Source: Microbacterium sp. BK668
GTDB lineage: Bacteria; Actinomycetota; Actinomycetes; Actinomycetales; Microbacteriaceae
Direction of reading: 5' to 3'
Length of the DNA: 64,000 nucleotides
Assembly: GCF_004362195.1 (NCBI RefSeq)
Contig: NZ_SNWG01000001.1
Location: 2,914,001-2,978,000, forward strand
Every line of letters starts with the position of its first letter. Positions within the stretch are counted from its first letter, which is position 1. A program made the position numbers and the translations under genes. Below, piece after piece: positions 43,624 to 49,581 of the stretch. The notes below the pieces were generated by a model. It was not told where the DNA came from. It did not search any database and saw only the letters and a list, made by a program, of their open reading frames with translations.

Positions 43624-44685
43624 ATGCGCATGCCCGCCACGATCCGCGCGCCGCGCCGCGCGCCGCTCCTGCAGGTGGTCAAGTCCGCCGTCGCGACGTC
43701 GGCGGCGTGGCTCGTCGCCGGCTTCCTCATTCCGGGGCCGCCGCCCGTCTTCGCCGCGATCGCGGCGCTGCTCGTCGTGCAGCCGAGCCTCAACCAGTCG
43801 CTGACGCGGGCGATCGAGCGCAGCGTCGGGGTCATCGCCGGCGTGCTCATCGCGTCGGTGCTCAGCATCCTGCTCGGCACCTCGACGTGGGTCATCCTCC
43901 TGACGACGGCGGTCGCCCTGCTTCTCGCGTGGGCGCTGCGGATGACGCCGGGCACGGCGAACCAGGTCGCGATCAGCGGGATCCTCGTCCTCGCCCTCGG
44001 CACGGCGACCCCGTCGTACGCCGTCGACCGGATCCTCGAGACGCTCATCGGCGCGGTCATCGGAATCATCGTCAATCTCGCGATCGTGCCGCCCGTCGCC
44101 GTCGCCCCCGCTCACGCCGCCGTCGACGAGCTGGGCGACGCCCTCGCCGACGCGCTCGACCGCCTCGGCGGAGCGCTGGAGTCGCCCCGGACGCCGTCGG
44201 AGCTCGCCCGGCTGCTCGACGACGCGCGCGCGGTCCGGCCGAAGCTCGAAGCGGCGGAAGACGCCATCGCCGCCGGCAGCGAGTCGCTGACGCTCAATCC
44301 GCGGAGCCGCCGGCACCGTGACGAGCTGGATGCCCTGACCGACCTGCTGGAGACCTTCCGGCCCATCGTCACGCAGATGATCGGTATGACCCGCGCCTGC
44401 AGCGAGCGCTACGACCCGACGATCGACGAGGAGCCCTCCGTCCCGGCGATCGCGGATCAGCTGCACCGCGCAGCACACGACGTGCGCCTGCAGCTGCGGC
44501 GCGCCGAGCCCCCGCAGACCGTCGCCCAGCGGTCGGCGGACGAGCCGGCGGCGCTGACCTCGCAGCTCACGGTGGCCCGGCCCTCCTCCACGCACTGGAT
44601 CCTCGTGGGCTCGCTCCTGGAGGACCTGCGCCGCATCCACGAGACGCTGACCGAGTCCGGCGCTACCGGTCGACCTCGACCGTGA
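43624..44685 (+). CDS. FUSC family (aromatic acid exporter-like) membrane protein
   Basis: A 353-residue protein with about six hydrophobic helices in the first 165 residues (including PPPVFAAIAALLVVQPSLNQSLTRAIERSVGVIAGVL, the FUSC signature region) and a helical cytoplasmic C-terminal domain. Family members are proposed exporters of fusaric or aromatic acids, or transport modules without fixed substrate. Its 3' end overlaps the convergent lipoprotein gene by 23 bases. Confidence 0.85.
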   Translation: MRMPATIRAPRRAPLLQVVKSAVATSAAWLVAGFLIPGPPPVFAAIAALLVVQPSLNQSLTRAIERSVGVIAGVLIASVLSILLGTSTWVILLTTAVALLLAWALRMTPGTANQVAISGILVLALGTATPSYAVDRILETLIGAVIGIIVNLAIVPPVAVAPAHAAVDELGDALADALDRLGGALESPRTPSELARLLDDARAVRPKLEAAEDAIAAGSESLTLNPRSRRHRDELDALTDLLETFRPIVTQMIGMTRACSERYDPTIDEEPSVPAIADQLHRAAHDVRLQLRRAEPPQTVAQRSADEPAALTSQLTVARPSSTHWILVGSLLEDLRRIHETLTESGATGRPRP

Positions 44686-45037
44686 ACGTGACGTTCTGGA
44701 TCCCGCCGTCGGAGTTCTTCAGCACGACGGTCGTCGTCCCCTCTGCGAGCCCTTTGACTCCCGGGTTGTAGAGAGCGCCGCCGTCCTCGCGCCCGGGCAC
44801 GAACTCCGCGACGTCGGGATCGGCGACCTCGCCGGTGTAGCTGTCGACCGCGAGCGACCCCGTGTCGATGTCGAGCACCTGTCCGACGGCGAGCTGCACC
44901 GTCTGCCCCTGCAGATCGTCCGCTTCCATCACGACCGGCTCGATGACCGGCGCCGCCGGCTGCGCGCACCCCGTGAGCCCGAGGGCGACGAGGGCCAGCG
45001 CGAGCGATACGGCTCCCCGCGCATTTGTCCGCCTCAC
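44663..45037 (-). CDS. Small lipoprotein, downstream of the nonulosonate operon
   Basis: A 124-residue protein with a type II signal (RRTNARGAVSLALALVALGLTGC, lipobox LTGC), so it is anchored outside the cell. The mature part is beta-rich, with TVQLAVGQVLDIDTGS and a repeated strand pattern that recalls Ig-like or chagasin-type inhibitor folds; neither can be confirmed. GTG 45037 gives a proper signal peptide, though the ribosome site is weak. It lies 32 bases after the glycosyltransferase-like gene and may belong to that operon. Confidence 0.7.
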   Translation of the reverse strand: MRRTNARGAVSLALALVALGLTGCAQPAAPVIEPVVMEADDLQGQTVQLAVGQVLDIDTGSLAVDSYTGEVADPDVAEFVPGREDGGALYNPGVKGLAEGTTTVVLKNSDGGIQNVTFTVEVDR

Positions 45038-45069: not shown

Positions 45070-46428
45070 CTACGCCGCGCGCGACAGGCGCATGCTCCGC
45101 CGCGCGGCGGCCCGCGTTCGCTGCAGCGCCCGCACGGCGCCGCGCACGGGCATCCCGATCGCTCCCGCGACGGCGCCGCCGACCGTCCGGTCGCGGTCGC
45201 CCAGCACGAGCTTGCGCTCCCACGCGTCGCGGAGCGCCCCGCCGGTCCGCCGCAGCGGGGGCTTGGCGGCCAGGCGACCCTCCCGGCGGCGCGCGATGAG
45301 AGCCGACAGGAGCACGGCCACGTCGTCGTCGGCGGCATCGTGGAAGTAGTTGTCGCGCAGCCACGCGGGCGACGGATGCCGGAACCGCCGCGCAACGACA
45401 TCCTCCTCGCCTCCGTACAGCCCGCTGCCCTGGAAGACCTCGTTGATGAGCCGGGCGGAGACGCCGAACGTGTCGAGCGCGATGACGGGGATGCCCCGGG
45501 CAACCGCCTCGATCGCGGCGGTCGAGCTGACGGTGACGAGCCCCTCGGCGGAGTCGAGGGCCGTCGCCATGGGCGCCGTCGAGAAGACGAGGTTCGCCGG
45601 ACGGGGACCGAGCGACGCCACGAGGTCGGTCAGGGGGTCGGCTTCGGCGTGCGTCTGATGCTCGCCGGCGCTCGCGCGGAGCTTCAGCACGACGCGGCGC
45701 GACGGGTCGGCGCGCGCTGCACGGACGAGGAGCTCGGCGAGCCGCCGGCGGTCGGCGCGATCGCGCGGGACGATCGCCTGCGCGGCGAAGACGAGGTCGG
45801 TGCAGGTCCGCGCGCGCCCTGCCGCCGTCGTCGCACCCGGGACAGGCGGATCGGCGAGGACAGGACGATCCGGCCCGAAACCTCCTGCCTCCGGCCGATC
45901 GCCTGTCCTGGCCGGCGAGCGCGCCGCGAACGGGAGCCGCGTGAGCGCGAACCGCTGCGAGAGGCCGCGCGATCGGGCGAGGGCGGCGAACTCGCGCACC
46001 TCACGCCGCGAATGGAGCACGAACAGGTCGCACTGGGTGCGGTAGACGAGCGACTTCCGCGTCGCCGGGACCGAGATCCCGGGAAGCCCCGACACGAGCA
46101 CCGGCCGCGGTGCGAGACCCGCCACGAGCCGTGCGACCACCCGCACGAGCGGCCCCCTGGCCGCGATCAGGACCGCGTCGGGAGGCTGCCGGGCGAGGCG
46201 CGTCCCGAGTGCCGCGAAGGTCACCCTCATGACGCGCTCCAGCCCGGTTCCCGCGAGCGCCGCGCGCTGCTGCTGCTCGCTCACGACGACGGGCGTGTCG
46301 AGGACGAGGAGCTCGACCTCCCAGTCCTCGGGGTCGAGGGCCGCCAGGAGCGCCGCGGCCCACTTGACGTACGAATCCGTGTCGGCGATGCCGACCACCC
46401 GGAGCCGCCGCTGCGGCGTGGCCGTCAC
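45070..46428 (-). CDS. Putative glycosyltransferase of the nonulosonate operon (DUF6716-like)
   Basis: A 452-residue protein. The N-terminus RLRVVGIADTDSYVKWAAALLAAL and the C-terminal VSSTAAIEAVARGIPVIALDTFG are typical of GT-B enzymes of capsule and teichoic-acid type, in which the SST loop binds the nucleotide-sugar phosphate. I recall actinobacterial relatives annotated as DUF6716 putative glycosyltransferases. The GTG start overlaps the neuB stop (GTGA), so it is made together with NeuB. A role in adding or branching nonulosonate-containing polymers is inferred from context. Confidence 0.75.
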   Translation of the reverse strand: MTATPQRRLRVVGIADTDSYVKWAAALLAALDPEDWEVELLVLDTPVVVSEQQQRAALAGTGLERVMRVTFAALGTRLARQPPDAVLIAARGPLVRVVARLVAGLAPRPVLVSGLPGISVPATRKSLVYRTQCDLFVLHSRREVREFAALARSRGLSQRFALTRLPFAARSPARTGDRPEAGGFGPDRPVLADPPVPGATTAAGRARTCTDLVFAAQAIVPRDRADRRRLAELLVRAARADPSRRVVLKLRASAGEHQTHAEADPLTDLVASLGPRPANLVFSTAPMATALDSAEGLVTVSSTAAIEAVARGIPVIALDTFGVSARLINEVFQGSGLYGGEEDVVARRFRHPSPAWLRDNYFHDAADDDVAVLLSALIARRREGRLAAKPPLRRTGGALRDAWERKLVLGDRDRTVGGAVAGAIGMPVRGAVRALQRTRAAARRSMRLSRAA

Positions 46429-47297
46429 GCCGGTACGCGCCGCAGCTTCGCCATGGGTGCGAGCTCGCCGGGGAACACGCGCTTGACGCCGTCGCCGAGC
46501 GCCGCTTCGATGACGCGGATGTCGCGCACGAGATGCTGCAGCCCGGTCGGCTCGAGCGACGCGGCGTGGTCGGAGCCCCACATCGTGCGGTCCAGCGTGA
46601 TGTGACGCTCGATCGCGACGGCACCGAGCGCGACCGCCGCGAGCGAGATCTGCAGCCCGCGCTCGTGGCCGGAGTAGCCCACGGGCACACCGGGGTAGCG
46701 CTCCCGGAGCACCGGGATGACGCGGAGGTTCGCCTCCTCGGGCTCCATCGGGTACGTCGATGTGGCGTGCATCAGCACGAGCCGGTCGGTGCCGAGCACG
46801 TCGATCGCCCGATCGATCTGCTCGATAGTCGACATCCCGGTCGACAGGATGACGGGCTTCCCGGTCTCGCGGAGCGCCTCGAGCAGCTCGACGTCGGTGA
46901 CGGAGGCGGAGGCGACCTTGTGGGCGACGACGCCGAGGTCTTCGAGGAAGGCGACGCTCGGCGCGTCCCACGGGGACGCGAACCACTCCAGGCCGCGGAG
47001 GAGCGCATGGTCGGAGATCTCGATGTACTCGTCCCGGCCGAACTCCACGCGCCGGCGGTAGTCGAGGTACGACATGGTGCCCCACGGCGTCTCGCGCGGA
47101 AGATCGCGCATGTGCTCGGGCGTCGCGAGCTCCGGGGTGCGCTTCTGGAACTTGACCGCGTCGGCGCCCGCGTCGGCCGCGAGGTCGATGAGCCGCTTCG
47201 CGAGCTCGACGTCTCCGTTGTGGTTCAGGCCGATCTCGGCGATGACGTAGGCGGGGCGGCCGCCTCCGATGACGCGCGTTCCGATCGTGACGGTCAC
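46425..47297 (-). CDS. neuB: N-acetylneuraminate synthase family protein without SAF domain
   Basis: Condenses phosphoenolpyruvate with a six-carbon sugar to give a nine-carbon 2-keto acid. The 290-residue barrel shows AEIGLNHNGDVELAK, KFQKRTPE, VILSTGM, GYSGHERG and ERHITLDRTMWGSDHAASL, all typical of NeuB/SpsE. Classical enzymes have about 345 residues with a C-terminal SAF (antifreeze-like) domain; here the protein ends at the linker (VFPGELAPMAKLRRVPA). The next gene starts in the GTGA overlap, so this is not a frameshift. AGGAG lies six bases before the GTG start. Whether the acceptor is ManNAc, mannose or a phosphate ester is open. Confidence 0.88.
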   Translation of the reverse strand: MTVTIGTRVIGGGRPAYVIAEIGLNHNGDVELAKRLIDLAADAGADAVKFQKRTPELATPEHMRDLPRETPWGTMSYLDYRRRVEFGRDEYIEISDHALLRGLEWFASPWDAPSVAFLEDLGVVAHKVASASVTDVELLEALRETGKPVILSTGMSTIEQIDRAIDVLGTDRLVLMHATSTYPMEPEEANLRVIPVLRERYPGVPVGYSGHERGLQISLAAVALGAVAIERHITLDRTMWGSDHAASLEPTGLQHLVRDIRVIEAALGDGVKRVFPGELAPMAKLRRVPA

Positions 47298-48484
47298 CGT
47301 GCGCTCCTGTTCTCTTCGTGGACGGGGGATGCCGTGCGCGCTGCGAGCACGCGGTCGGCGAGCGCGCGGACGGCCCCGTCGCCGCCGGGCCGGTCGACGA
47401 CGGCGCGTGCGGCCGCCAGGACGAGGGGGTGGGAGCCGGGCACAGCGACGGGCCAGCCGACGAGCTCGAGGCACGCGAGGTCGTTGACGTCGTTGGCGAG
47501 GTAGGCGATGCGCGAGAGGGGGACCGCCGCGGCATCCGCCCATGCACGCAGCGCGTCCGCCTTGTCGTCGACGCCCTGGAGCACCTCGACCCGGAGCTTG
47601 CGGGCGCGGGCGCCGACCACCGGATTCGTCTCGGTCGAGAGGATGAGCACCGGGACGCCCGCCCTTCGCAGGAGCGAGACGCCCATGCCGTCGGCGCGGC
47701 TGACCCGCACGGATTCGCGGCCCTCGTCGTCGACCGCGACGGTGTCGTCGGTGTGGACGCCGTCGAAGTCCGTCACGACGACGTCGACGTCGATCGGCTC
47801 GGGCGCGTCGATGAGCGGGGCGAGCGCCTGCGCCTGCTCGAGCTCCGCCACGGTGTCGATCTCGATCGCCGTGCGCTCGGGCACCTCGACGATCCCGATC
47901 CGGCCGAAGAAGCGGTGAGCGGATGCCGCGAACCCGGCGGCGTCGACCACGTAGAACGCGCCCGTCTCGAGGTGGTGGGGATCGCGGTCCTGGCGGCGCG
48001 GGCGGTGCGCCGCGTCGTGGTTGATCGCAACGGCCTCGAACGCGGCATCCCGAGCCCACAGGAAGCCGTACGTCTCCACGGCCGCGAAGACGCAGTCGAA
48101 GCGGTCGGAGCGTACGAGGCGCACGGCTTCGGCCAGGGCGGGGGTGTGGATGAATGGCGAGGTCGCCTGCAGGAAGGCGACGGCCGAGACGTCGACGCCC
48201 CGCTCGGCGAGGACGCCGAGGGCGTGCAGCACCGCGCTCTCGGAGCTCGCCGTGTCGCCGGCCATGTCGGCGGGCCGGTCGACGACCTCCGCGCCCCACT
48301 CGCGGGCGACCGCGGCGATCTCGGCGTCATCGGTCGAGACGACGATCCGGTCGACGGCTCCGCTCCGGCGGGCGGCGGCGATGGCGCGGGCGACGAGCGG
48401 CACTCCCCCGACGCGGCGGAGGTTCTTGCGCGGCACGCCCTTCGACCCGCCGCGGGCCGGGATGATCGCGACCACCTCGCTCAC
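47294..48484 (-). CDS. neuA: CMP-nonulosonate synthetase fused to a KdsC-like HAD phosphatase
   Basis: A 396-residue bifunctional protein. Residues 1-225 are an acylneuraminate cytidylyltransferase (VAIIPARGGSKGVPRKNLRRVGG, FLQATSPF, ETGAFYVV); residues 233-390 are a HAD domain of the KdsC/8-phosphatase type with nucleophile Asp239-x-Asp241 in VVTDFDGVHTDD, motif II Ser/Thr in LILSTETNP, and NDVNDLACLELVG. The first domain activates the sugar acid with CTP; the second may remove the phosphate from a 9-phosphate precursor. Both junctions with neighbours are GTGA overlaps. Animal CMP-sialate synthetases also carry a HAD-like tail. Confidence 0.88.
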   Translation of the reverse strand: MSEVVAIIPARGGSKGVPRKNLRRVGGVPLVARAIAAARRSGAVDRIVVSTDDAEIAAVAREWGAEVVDRPADMAGDTASSESAVLHALGVLAERGVDVSAVAFLQATSPFIHTPALAEAVRLVRSDRFDCVFAAVETYGFLWARDAAFEAVAINHDAAHRPRRQDRDPHHLETGAFYVVDAAGFAASAHRFFGRIGIVEVPERTAIEIDTVAELEQAQALAPLIDAPEPIDVDVVVTDFDGVHTDDTVAVDDEGRESVRVSRADGMGVSLLRRAGVPVLILSTETNPVVGARARKLRVEVLQGVDDKADALRAWADAAAVPLSRIAYLANDVNDLACLELVGWPVAVPGSHPLVLAAARAVVDRPGGDGAVRALADRVLAARTASPVHEENRSAR

Positions 48485-49386
48485 GACGCCACCTCGCTCG
48501 TGCGCACAGGTCTCGTGCGGATCGTGAACCGTGCGCCGTGCAGCACGAGCGGGAGCGTCGTGGCGGTGCTCGACGGGAGGGTGAAGATCTCGAGCGGCCC
48601 GCGGGCGCCGGCCAGCACGAGCTCGGCGGGGAGACCGGCCGCCCAAACGGTGACAGCGGCGATCTCGTTGACGGCGTCGAGCTGTGCCTTCGGCTCGCGA
48701 CGGTGCGGCAGATATGTGACGGGACCGGATGCCGCGACCCCGGCCACCCAGCGCAGGTAGTCGCCGAGCGCCATCCGCCCGTCGACGGGCCGGGCGCTGC
48801 CCATGAGCACGCGCGGTCCGGGGCCGGAGCCCTTCGGCGCGCCGGCCCGCGTCCATTCGAAGCGGTGGTTCCGGACGGCGACGCCTCGACGCGCGAGCGC
48901 TTCGCGCTCGGCGATGTCGAAGGCCGTGAACAGCGTGACACGCCGTGCGGCGGCGATCCGGAGCGTGCGCTCGAGGGCGAACGGCGCGAGCGTCCGAGTC
49001 ATCCGCCCCTCCTCCACACCCGGGCGCGCGTACGGTCCCGTCCCGACGAGCGCCCGGGCGAACGGCAGCGTGTTCGCGCCGTCGTCGAGGAAGGTGAGCC
49101 GCCGGGGGCGGAGCGCCGTGAGCGCCAGGCGGAACTGTCCCGAGAAGCCGTCGCCGATGAGCCAGTGGTCGTGCTGGGCGAGGAGCTTCCACGGGATGCC
49201 GAGATACGGCTCCATCGCACCGAACAGCGCGCCGCGCGCGACGAGCTCGTCGGCGGTCTCCGACATCCGGGTCGTGAGGCGGCCCGCGATCGGAACCGCG
49301 CGGTCGTGTGCCGACGCCCATTCGGCCGCGCCGATCAGCTGGAGGGGTGACTCCACCCAGGCCAGCACCGTGTCGCGACTGCTCAT
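48481..49386 (-). CDS. Polysialyltransferase-like glycosyltransferase
   Basis: A 301-residue protein, first gene of the nonulosonate operon. The start SRDTVLAWVESPLQLIGAAEWA is typical of bacterial polysialyltransferase/GT52-like proteins, and Asp101-Asp102-Gly103 in TFLDDGANT matches the D/E-D/E-G motif shared by bacterial sialyltransferases. Instead of the usual His-Pro motif I see PHRRE at 227-231; an SST loop follows at 272-274. GGGAG precedes the ATG by about four bases. It probably transfers the CMP-activated sugar made by the next gene. Confidence 0.78.
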   Translation of the reverse strand: MSSRDTVLAWVESPLQLIGAAEWASAHDRAVPIAGRLTTRMSETADELVARGALFGAMEPYLGIPWKLLAQHDHWLIGDGFSGQFRLALTALRPRRLTFLDDGANTLPFARALVGTGPYARPGVEEGRMTRTLAPFALERTLRIAAARRVTLFTAFDIAEREALARRGVAVRNHRFEWTRAGAPKGSGPGPRVLMGSARPVDGRMALGDYLRWVAGVAASGPVTYLPHRREPKAQLDAVNEIAAVTVWAAGLPAELVLAGARGPLEIFTLPSSTATTLPLVLHGARFTIRTRPVRTSEVAS

Positions 49387-49581
49387 CTGTCTCCCGGTCG
49401 TCGGTTGCGCGCAACCGTCCGATCCACGCTCATGGCCTCGGGTGACCGGGGATCGCACAGGAGGCGACGCCGCGACGGACGACGGATGAACGGTCGGTGC
49501 GGCGCGGTTCGGTGCCCACGACGCCGGCCGGTGCTGTGGATAAGTGCGGCGACCCTCAGGCGCCGTGGTTACGGTGGTCGC

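Follow-up and report, generated by a model that had tools for sequence, protein, structure and literature searches.

A compact operon of Microbacterium sp. BK668 predicted to make and use CMP-Kdn without a recognised 2-epimerase

Which nonulosonic acid would a bacterium make when a NeuB-type synthase and a NeuA-type synthetase are encoded side by side and NeuC, the UDP-N-acetylglucosamine (UDP-GlcNAc) 2-epimerase, is missing, and where would the product go? This question is raised by four minus-strand genes (49386-45070) of Microbacterium sp. BK668, which encode, in order, a protein here called g1, a NeuA-HAD fusion, NeuB and a DUF6716 protein. The window, by which we mean the whole stretch of DNA analysed, is 64,000 nucleotides long (G000:C1:2914001-2978000) and belongs to a 3.73-Mb genome of 7 contigs with a completeness rating of 100%. 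Judged by NeuB, the nearest named relatives are other members of Microbacterium, mostly at 83-91% identity, with M. barkeri at 79% and M. indicum at 73%. A previous, sequence-only reading had described a four-gene operon joined by three GTGA overlaps, and we recovered the same coordinates and frames. The features are listed below; the boundary of the NeuA domain at 47810 was drawn by hand.

48481..49386, minus strand: g1, putative CMP-nonulosonate (Kdn) transferase of GT-B fold (ATG start, 301 aa)
47294..48484, minus strand: g2, NeuA-HAD fusion (GTG start, 396 aa)
47810..48484, minus strand: N-terminal domain of g2, CMP-nonulosonate synthetase of NeuA type (PF02348, 82.8 bits; matches to NeuA / CMP-NeuAc synthetases in the PDB, best E 7.3e-33)
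47339..47788, minus strand: C-terminal domain of g2, HAD of the KdsC / Kdn-9-phosphate phosphatase group, assigned from HMM and PDB matches and residues
46425..47297, minus strand: g3, NeuB-family synthase without SAF domain, predicted Kdn-9-phosphate synthase (GTG start, 290 aa; PF03102, 267 bits)
45070..46428, minus strand: g4, DUF6716 putative glycosyltransferase of GT-B fold (GTG start, 452 aa; PF20471, 422 bits)
48481..48484, minus strand: GTGA overlap of g1 and g2
47294..47297, minus strand: GTGA overlap of g2 and g3
46425..46428, minus strand: GTGA overlap of g3 and g4

The start of g1 is the least certain of the four, with in-frame candidates at ATG 49386, GTG 49458 and GTG 49368.

On the sequence data, the operon probably makes cytidine monophosphate (CMP)-activated Kdn (3-deoxy-D-glycero-D-galacto-nonulosonic acid), starting from mannose-6-phosphate, and uses it for a wall polymer. 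NeuB (g3) would form Kdn-9-phosphate by condensing mannose-6-phosphate with phosphoenolpyruvate, the HAD domain of g2 would strip off the phosphate, and the NeuA domain of the same protein would give CMP-Kdn. The sialyltransferase-like GT-B protein g1 would then transfer Kdn and the DUF6716 protein would add the partner sugar, so that g1 and g4 together would build a teichulosonic-acid-type wall glycopolymer containing Kdn. Orthology gives the Kdn reading good support; we infer all the substrates, how g1 and g4 share the work, which SCO genes of Streptomyces coelicolor correspond to the four, and the polymer.

As far as protein families can tell, the genome appears to lack a 2-epimerase. The absence of NeuC, claimed before from the operon, was upheld by a genome-wide search, in which PF02350 (NeuC, WecB) had 0 matches in this genome and matched 11 of 14 control genomes. 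The same genome had no match to NanE (PF04131; 8 of the 14 controls positive) or to the GlcNAc 2-epimerase family PF07221 (2 of 14). Because none of the three families is matched, neither N-acetylmannosamine (ManNAc) nor ManNAc-6-phosphate has an evident source, and because the genome does encode phosphomannose isomerase (ManA), mannose-6-phosphate is the only evident substrate of NeuB, which is present in one copy. The idea that no epimerase is needed is therefore supported by these searches, by ManA and by the four-gene counterparts that we infer in the S. coelicolor cluster. Among 50 genomes picked for spread from those that hold the 80 named loci of this NeuB, 24 likewise had no match to PF02350, with no completeness ratings given for these genomes. 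In Prymnesium, a Kdn-9-phosphate synthase is described in an excerpt of PMC6200933 as accepting only mannose-6-phosphate of seven sugars.

The identification of g3 as NeuB was confirmed by its PF03102 match. A Pfam scan found no SAF domain in g3, and all 21 aligned NeuB proteins, that of the window included, stop shortly after the barrel. In Neisseria NeuB, residues of the SAF domain contact the N-acetyl group. Within the genus, 125 of 198 genomes have a NeuB match, which is of the close type in 119 and only distant (40-44% identity) in 6. A second NeuB type, 34-45% identical to the window protein, accompanies the close type in a number of these genomes.

The orthology runs through Streptomyces. 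SCO4873-SCO4882 is called a teichulosonic-acid cluster in a passage of PMC13011467, there citing Ostash 2014, and an excerpt of PMC7831098 gives galactose and Kdn as constituents of the S. coelicolor polymer. A table in the available part of PMC8269224 pairs neighbouring genes of Planobispora rosea with SCO4877, SCO4878 (GT family 2), SCO4879, SCO4880 ('Sialic acid synthase') and SCO4882. In another strain of P. rosea, locus L101 holds a fused NeuA-HAD-NeuB, a GT2 (glycosyltransferase family 2) gene, a PF07388-type gene and DUF6716; g1 is not part of the locus. Because the table and the content of this locus agree, g1 excepted, we equate g4 with SCO4879, g2 and g3 with SCO4880 and SCO4881, and g1 with SCO4882, as probable counterparts to the extent that the table covers them. 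Of the 11 named Streptomyces loci, 10 have DUF6716, NeuA-HAD, NeuB and g1 with GT2 and a PF07388-type gene running divergently from them, the eleventh being incomplete; family assignments were taken from the Streptomyces-like locus L051, and GT2 matches below 120 bits were dropped from all gene orders. A Kdn polymer is also placed in the wall of Promicromonospora citrea by an excerpt of PMC6801904, and in other Promicromonospora species all 3 loci have NeuA-HAD, NeuB and g1 and 2 of the 3 have DUF6716. The operon represents in compact form an actinobacterial gene set that is already known and is linked to Kdn-bearing walls in Streptomyces, so it is not a new kind of system. What was unexpected is a three-enzyme fusion, an exchangeable transferase and two transferase families without an assigned specificity.

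The proposed CMP-synthetase/HAD fusion was likewise recovered: its N-terminal part is a CTP_transf_3 domain, and the HAD behind it falls in the group of KdsC and Kdn-9-phosphate phosphatase. This HAD scored 90.8 bits with the Kdn-9-phosphate phosphatase model NF058599 (cut-off 180) and 85.3 bits with the KdsC model; the hidden Markov models (HMMs) do not separate Kdn-9-phosphate phosphatase from the phosphatase of 3-deoxy-D-manno-octulosonic acid (KDO) 8-phosphate, which leaves the substrate unsettled. Its PDB matches include 3mmz (E 6.1e-50) and 3e81 (E 6e-20, 75.9 bits), the latter of which we take to be the Bacteroides Kdn-9-phosphate phosphatase. Aligned to 3e81, the domain retains both catalytic Asp residues as well as Glu56 and Lys67, and it has Asn at position 103. 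Glu56, Lys67 and Asp103 are presumably functional positions of the Bacteroides enzyme, and 4hgq and 4hgr differ from 3e81 at exactly those Glu and Lys positions; a literature search on Kdn-9-phosphate phosphatase specificity found nothing. We surveyed 99 HAD domains from 115 loci, using one best piece per locus (16 of the 115 gave none). The nucleophile Asp was kept in 94 of 96 domains covering it and the second Asp in 96 of 96, the equivalents of Glu56 and Lys67 in 97 of 99 each, and the two Asp after position 103 in all 99. Moreover, two Microbacterium loci carry an intact HAD upstream of NeuB with no adjoining NeuA, one at L035:7701-8216 (G121, a genome with a second locus that has NeuA-HAD and NeuB) and one at L112:1767-2237 (M. 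barkeri).

The gene set recurs together across many actinobacterial genera. Among the 80 named loci, 52 have a fused NeuA-HAD and a separate NeuB, 14 have all three in one frame and 8 have no HAD; 2 were not joined in frame by our test and 4 were incomplete. One open NeuA-HAD-NeuB frame is present in L099, L100, L101, L104-L108, L110, L115, L120, L121, L124 and L136, and also, as called open reading frames (ORFs) of 651-696 aa, in L045, L046, L052, L053, L065 and L066. Such a frame would encode a single protein that carries mannose-6-phosphate all the way to CMP-Kdn. Two further frames fuse NeuA straight to NeuB without HAD (L055:10469-12184 and L061:1770-3416, the latter on a 4.1-kb contig), and in L094 the NeuA frame is broken inside the match. 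Within the 6-kb flanks that bound these counts, 67 of the 80 named loci show DUF6716 and 43 show g1. Across the class, DUF6716 scored above cut-off in 90 of 393 genomes, of which 81 carry a strong NeuB match no more than 20 kb away and 3 carry it on another contig; strong NeuB matches were entered by eye for the DUF6716 genomes only, and sub-cut-off DUF6716 matches, the only ones in three genomes, were excluded.

Several observations weigh against the Kdn reading. The best NCBIfam model of g3 is that of N-acetylneuraminate synthase, although g3 reaches 261 bits where the cut-off is 400. Of the 50 genomes with the module, 26 have a PF02350 protein, three Promicromonospora included, although these proteins presumably serve other polymers, and 6 of the 90 DUF6716 genomes lack a strong NeuB. 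No polymerase or exporter was recognised among the operon genes. In an excerpt of PMC9000132, Serratia KDN capsule preparations also held N-acetylneuraminic acid (Neu5Ac), at about 1:20, so mixed products are possible. As for the phosphatase, the KdsC model outscored the Kdn-9-phosphate phosphatase model in all four of the other HAD-bearing proteins that were scanned, Asn replaces the Bacteroides Asp103 in 97 of 99 HAD domains, and 8 of the 80 named loci lack a HAD (L088 and L090-L094 of Curtobacterium, L087 and L103), among them all 6 Curtobacterium loci, whose genomes have no close copy at another place.

The NCBIfam result would suit a Neu5Ac operon, in which NeuB would act on ManNAc or ManNAc-6-phosphate coming from salvage or from an epimerase that escaped recognition, and a 9-phosphatase would fit a route from ManNAc-6-phosphate too. 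We consider this explanation quite unlikely, however, given a genome rated 100% complete with no PF02350, PF04131 or PF07221 match, a NeuB without the SAF domain that contacts the N-acetyl group in the Neisseria enzyme, and the counterparts of the genes in the Streptomyces Kdn cluster.

The HAD findings raise another doubt, namely that the domain is a mere oligomerisation platform, as in the vertebrate CMP-sialic acid synthetase, and that a housekeeping phosphatase acts in its place or dephosphorylation is unneeded. The NeuA-HAD architecture is the same, the mouse enzyme and its C-domain had no phosphatase activity in vitro according to an excerpt of PMC8636478, and both the Asn at position 103 and the HAD-less loci would be in keeping with such a role. 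Nevertheless, we regard it as rather unlikely, since the nucleophile, the second Asp and the Glu56 and Lys67 equivalents are so widely kept and since L035 and L112 retain an intact HAD with no NeuA beside it. The HAD is probably an active phosphatase that other phosphatases can replace, a substitution that has been argued for Prymnesium (excerpt of PMC6200933). The suggestion that the fused HAD supplies the 9-phosphatase is thus plausible in light of its catalytic residues and the two NeuA-less loci, and likely short of proven because of the Asn for Asp and the loci without HAD. We also asked whether loss of HAD is explained by gain of a 2-epimerase and found no support for it, PF02350 being present in 4 of 8 HAD-less genomes versus 22 of 42 others.

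At the other end of the predicted CMP-Kdn pathway stand the two transferases. The description of g1 as polysialyltransferase-like holds for its motifs and its predicted fold, which is nearest a bacterial polysialyltransferase and falls in the GT-B sialyltransferase group by our fold test, but not at the level of families: g1 has no Pfam or NCBIfam match, and a profile search of the PDB gave nothing up to E 1. Membership in PF07388 found no support in the sequence: hhalign against 14 PF07388-type neighbour genes returned a 2% probability. In 20 g1 members there was no PF07388 match, and four unrelated families matched one member each. For g4, the proposed glycosyltransferase-like character agrees with its strong match to DUF6716, annotated 'Putative glycosyltransferase', a family for which we found no paper in the literature searched. 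Its best hit in a profile search of the PDB was CalG4, at E 0.019. Because its predicted fold is nearest the 2-epimerases, we examined whether g4 is a cryptic 2-epimerase standing in for NeuC rather than a glycosyltransferase. With no PF02350 match in g4 and an hhalign probability of 5% against that family, we find the idea very improbable.

The transferase upstream of the core varies within the genus. Among the 14 Microbacterium-labelled loci in L069-L083, g1 was found in 5, a GT2 + PF07388 pair in 9 and both in 0; neither was seen in L102 and L112, and no such pair was called beside the window operon. It is conceivable, and we propose it tentatively, that an epimerase-free CMP-Kdn factory, with three enzymes that are welding together in evolution (NeuA-HAD in the window, NeuA-HAD-NeuB in other loci), feeds g1 as a new Kdn transferase family, and that Microbacterium swaps the g1 cassette for the GT2 + PF07388 pair upstream of the same core, thereby switching the structure of an envelope polymer. 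Elsewhere, a g1-like and a DUF6716-like sequence share one frame, called as one ORF, at L044:8139-10373, possibly a fused transferase pair. In L074, NeuB is followed by three successive DUF6716 matches, which may be repeated genes or a single match that was split.

A wall polymer is not the only conceivable destination, as CMP-Kdn might instead cap a glycolipid, lipoglycan or glycoprotein. An operon with two putative transferases, no recognised export or polymerisation gene and no GT2 + PF07388 pair of the larger clusters would fit such capping. The counterparts of both transferases that probably lie in the S. coelicolor wall-polymer cluster argue the other way, as do proteins of the LCP wall-ligase family, with 4 matches at 3 places in the genome, and we think capping the doubtful option of the two.

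The GTGA overlaps suggest at most translational coupling of the operon genes. Related overlaps (NTGA) are common among plus-strand neighbours of the 80 named loci, at g1/NeuA (11 of 16), NeuB/DUF6716 (25 of 34) and PF07388 gene/NeuA (7 of 10); HAD and NeuB overlap in this way in 19 of 65, and 14 of these loci have them fused. Because such overlaps are so frequent in related loci and are silent on stoichiometry, the statement that the four proteins are made in fixed ratio was an over-claim. A small minus-strand ORF (44663-45037), whose start resembles that of a lipoprotein, lies 32 nt beyond the end of g4 and may belong to the operon as its fifth gene. The Streptomyces teichulosonic-acid cluster is under PhoP control. 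The window has 32 matches to the PHO box, where 28.3 would be expected, and 26 of 100 shuffles reach that number; two overlapping matches with three mismatches lie upstream of g1, at 49476-49502.

We found no report of Kdn in Microbacterium walls in the titles and abstract openings searched. Given the close NeuB type in 119 of 198 genomes, envelopes containing Kdn are predicted for much of the genus. If this is true, 'sialic acid synthase' annotations in Actinobacteria would be tied to Kdn, and there would be two glycosyltransferase families to study, along with a naturally fused set of three enzymes for CMP-Kdn synthesis.

Compared with known systems, the locus shares NeuB and NeuA with the canonical NeuB-NeuC-NeuA pathway and differs in a genome without a NeuC match, a NeuB without SAF and an extra HAD. 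The Kdn route of Bacteroides thetaiotaomicron, as given in an excerpt of PMC6200933, resembles it in using a Kdn-9-phosphate synthase and a phosphatase from mannose-6-phosphate; in the window, unlike Bacteroides, the HAD is fused to NeuA and has Asn at position 103. The vertebrate CMP-sialic acid synthetase also has NeuA and then HAD in one protein (excerpt of PMC8636478), and 3ewi is among the PDB matches of g2, whereas the HAD of the actinobacterial clade also occurs without an adjoining NeuA. Closest is S. coelicolor SCO4873-SCO4882: NeuA-HAD, NeuB, DUF6716 and g1-type genes stand together in Streptomyces and Streptosporangiaceae loci, as they do here. In contrast to the Streptomyces-like locus L051, the window has four genes only, without an acyltransferase gene and without the divergent GT2 and PF07388 genes, and if the GT2 + PF07388 pair is taken, as we read it, as a defining part of the SCO4873-SCO4882-type set, the window lacks this part and has the four-gene core.

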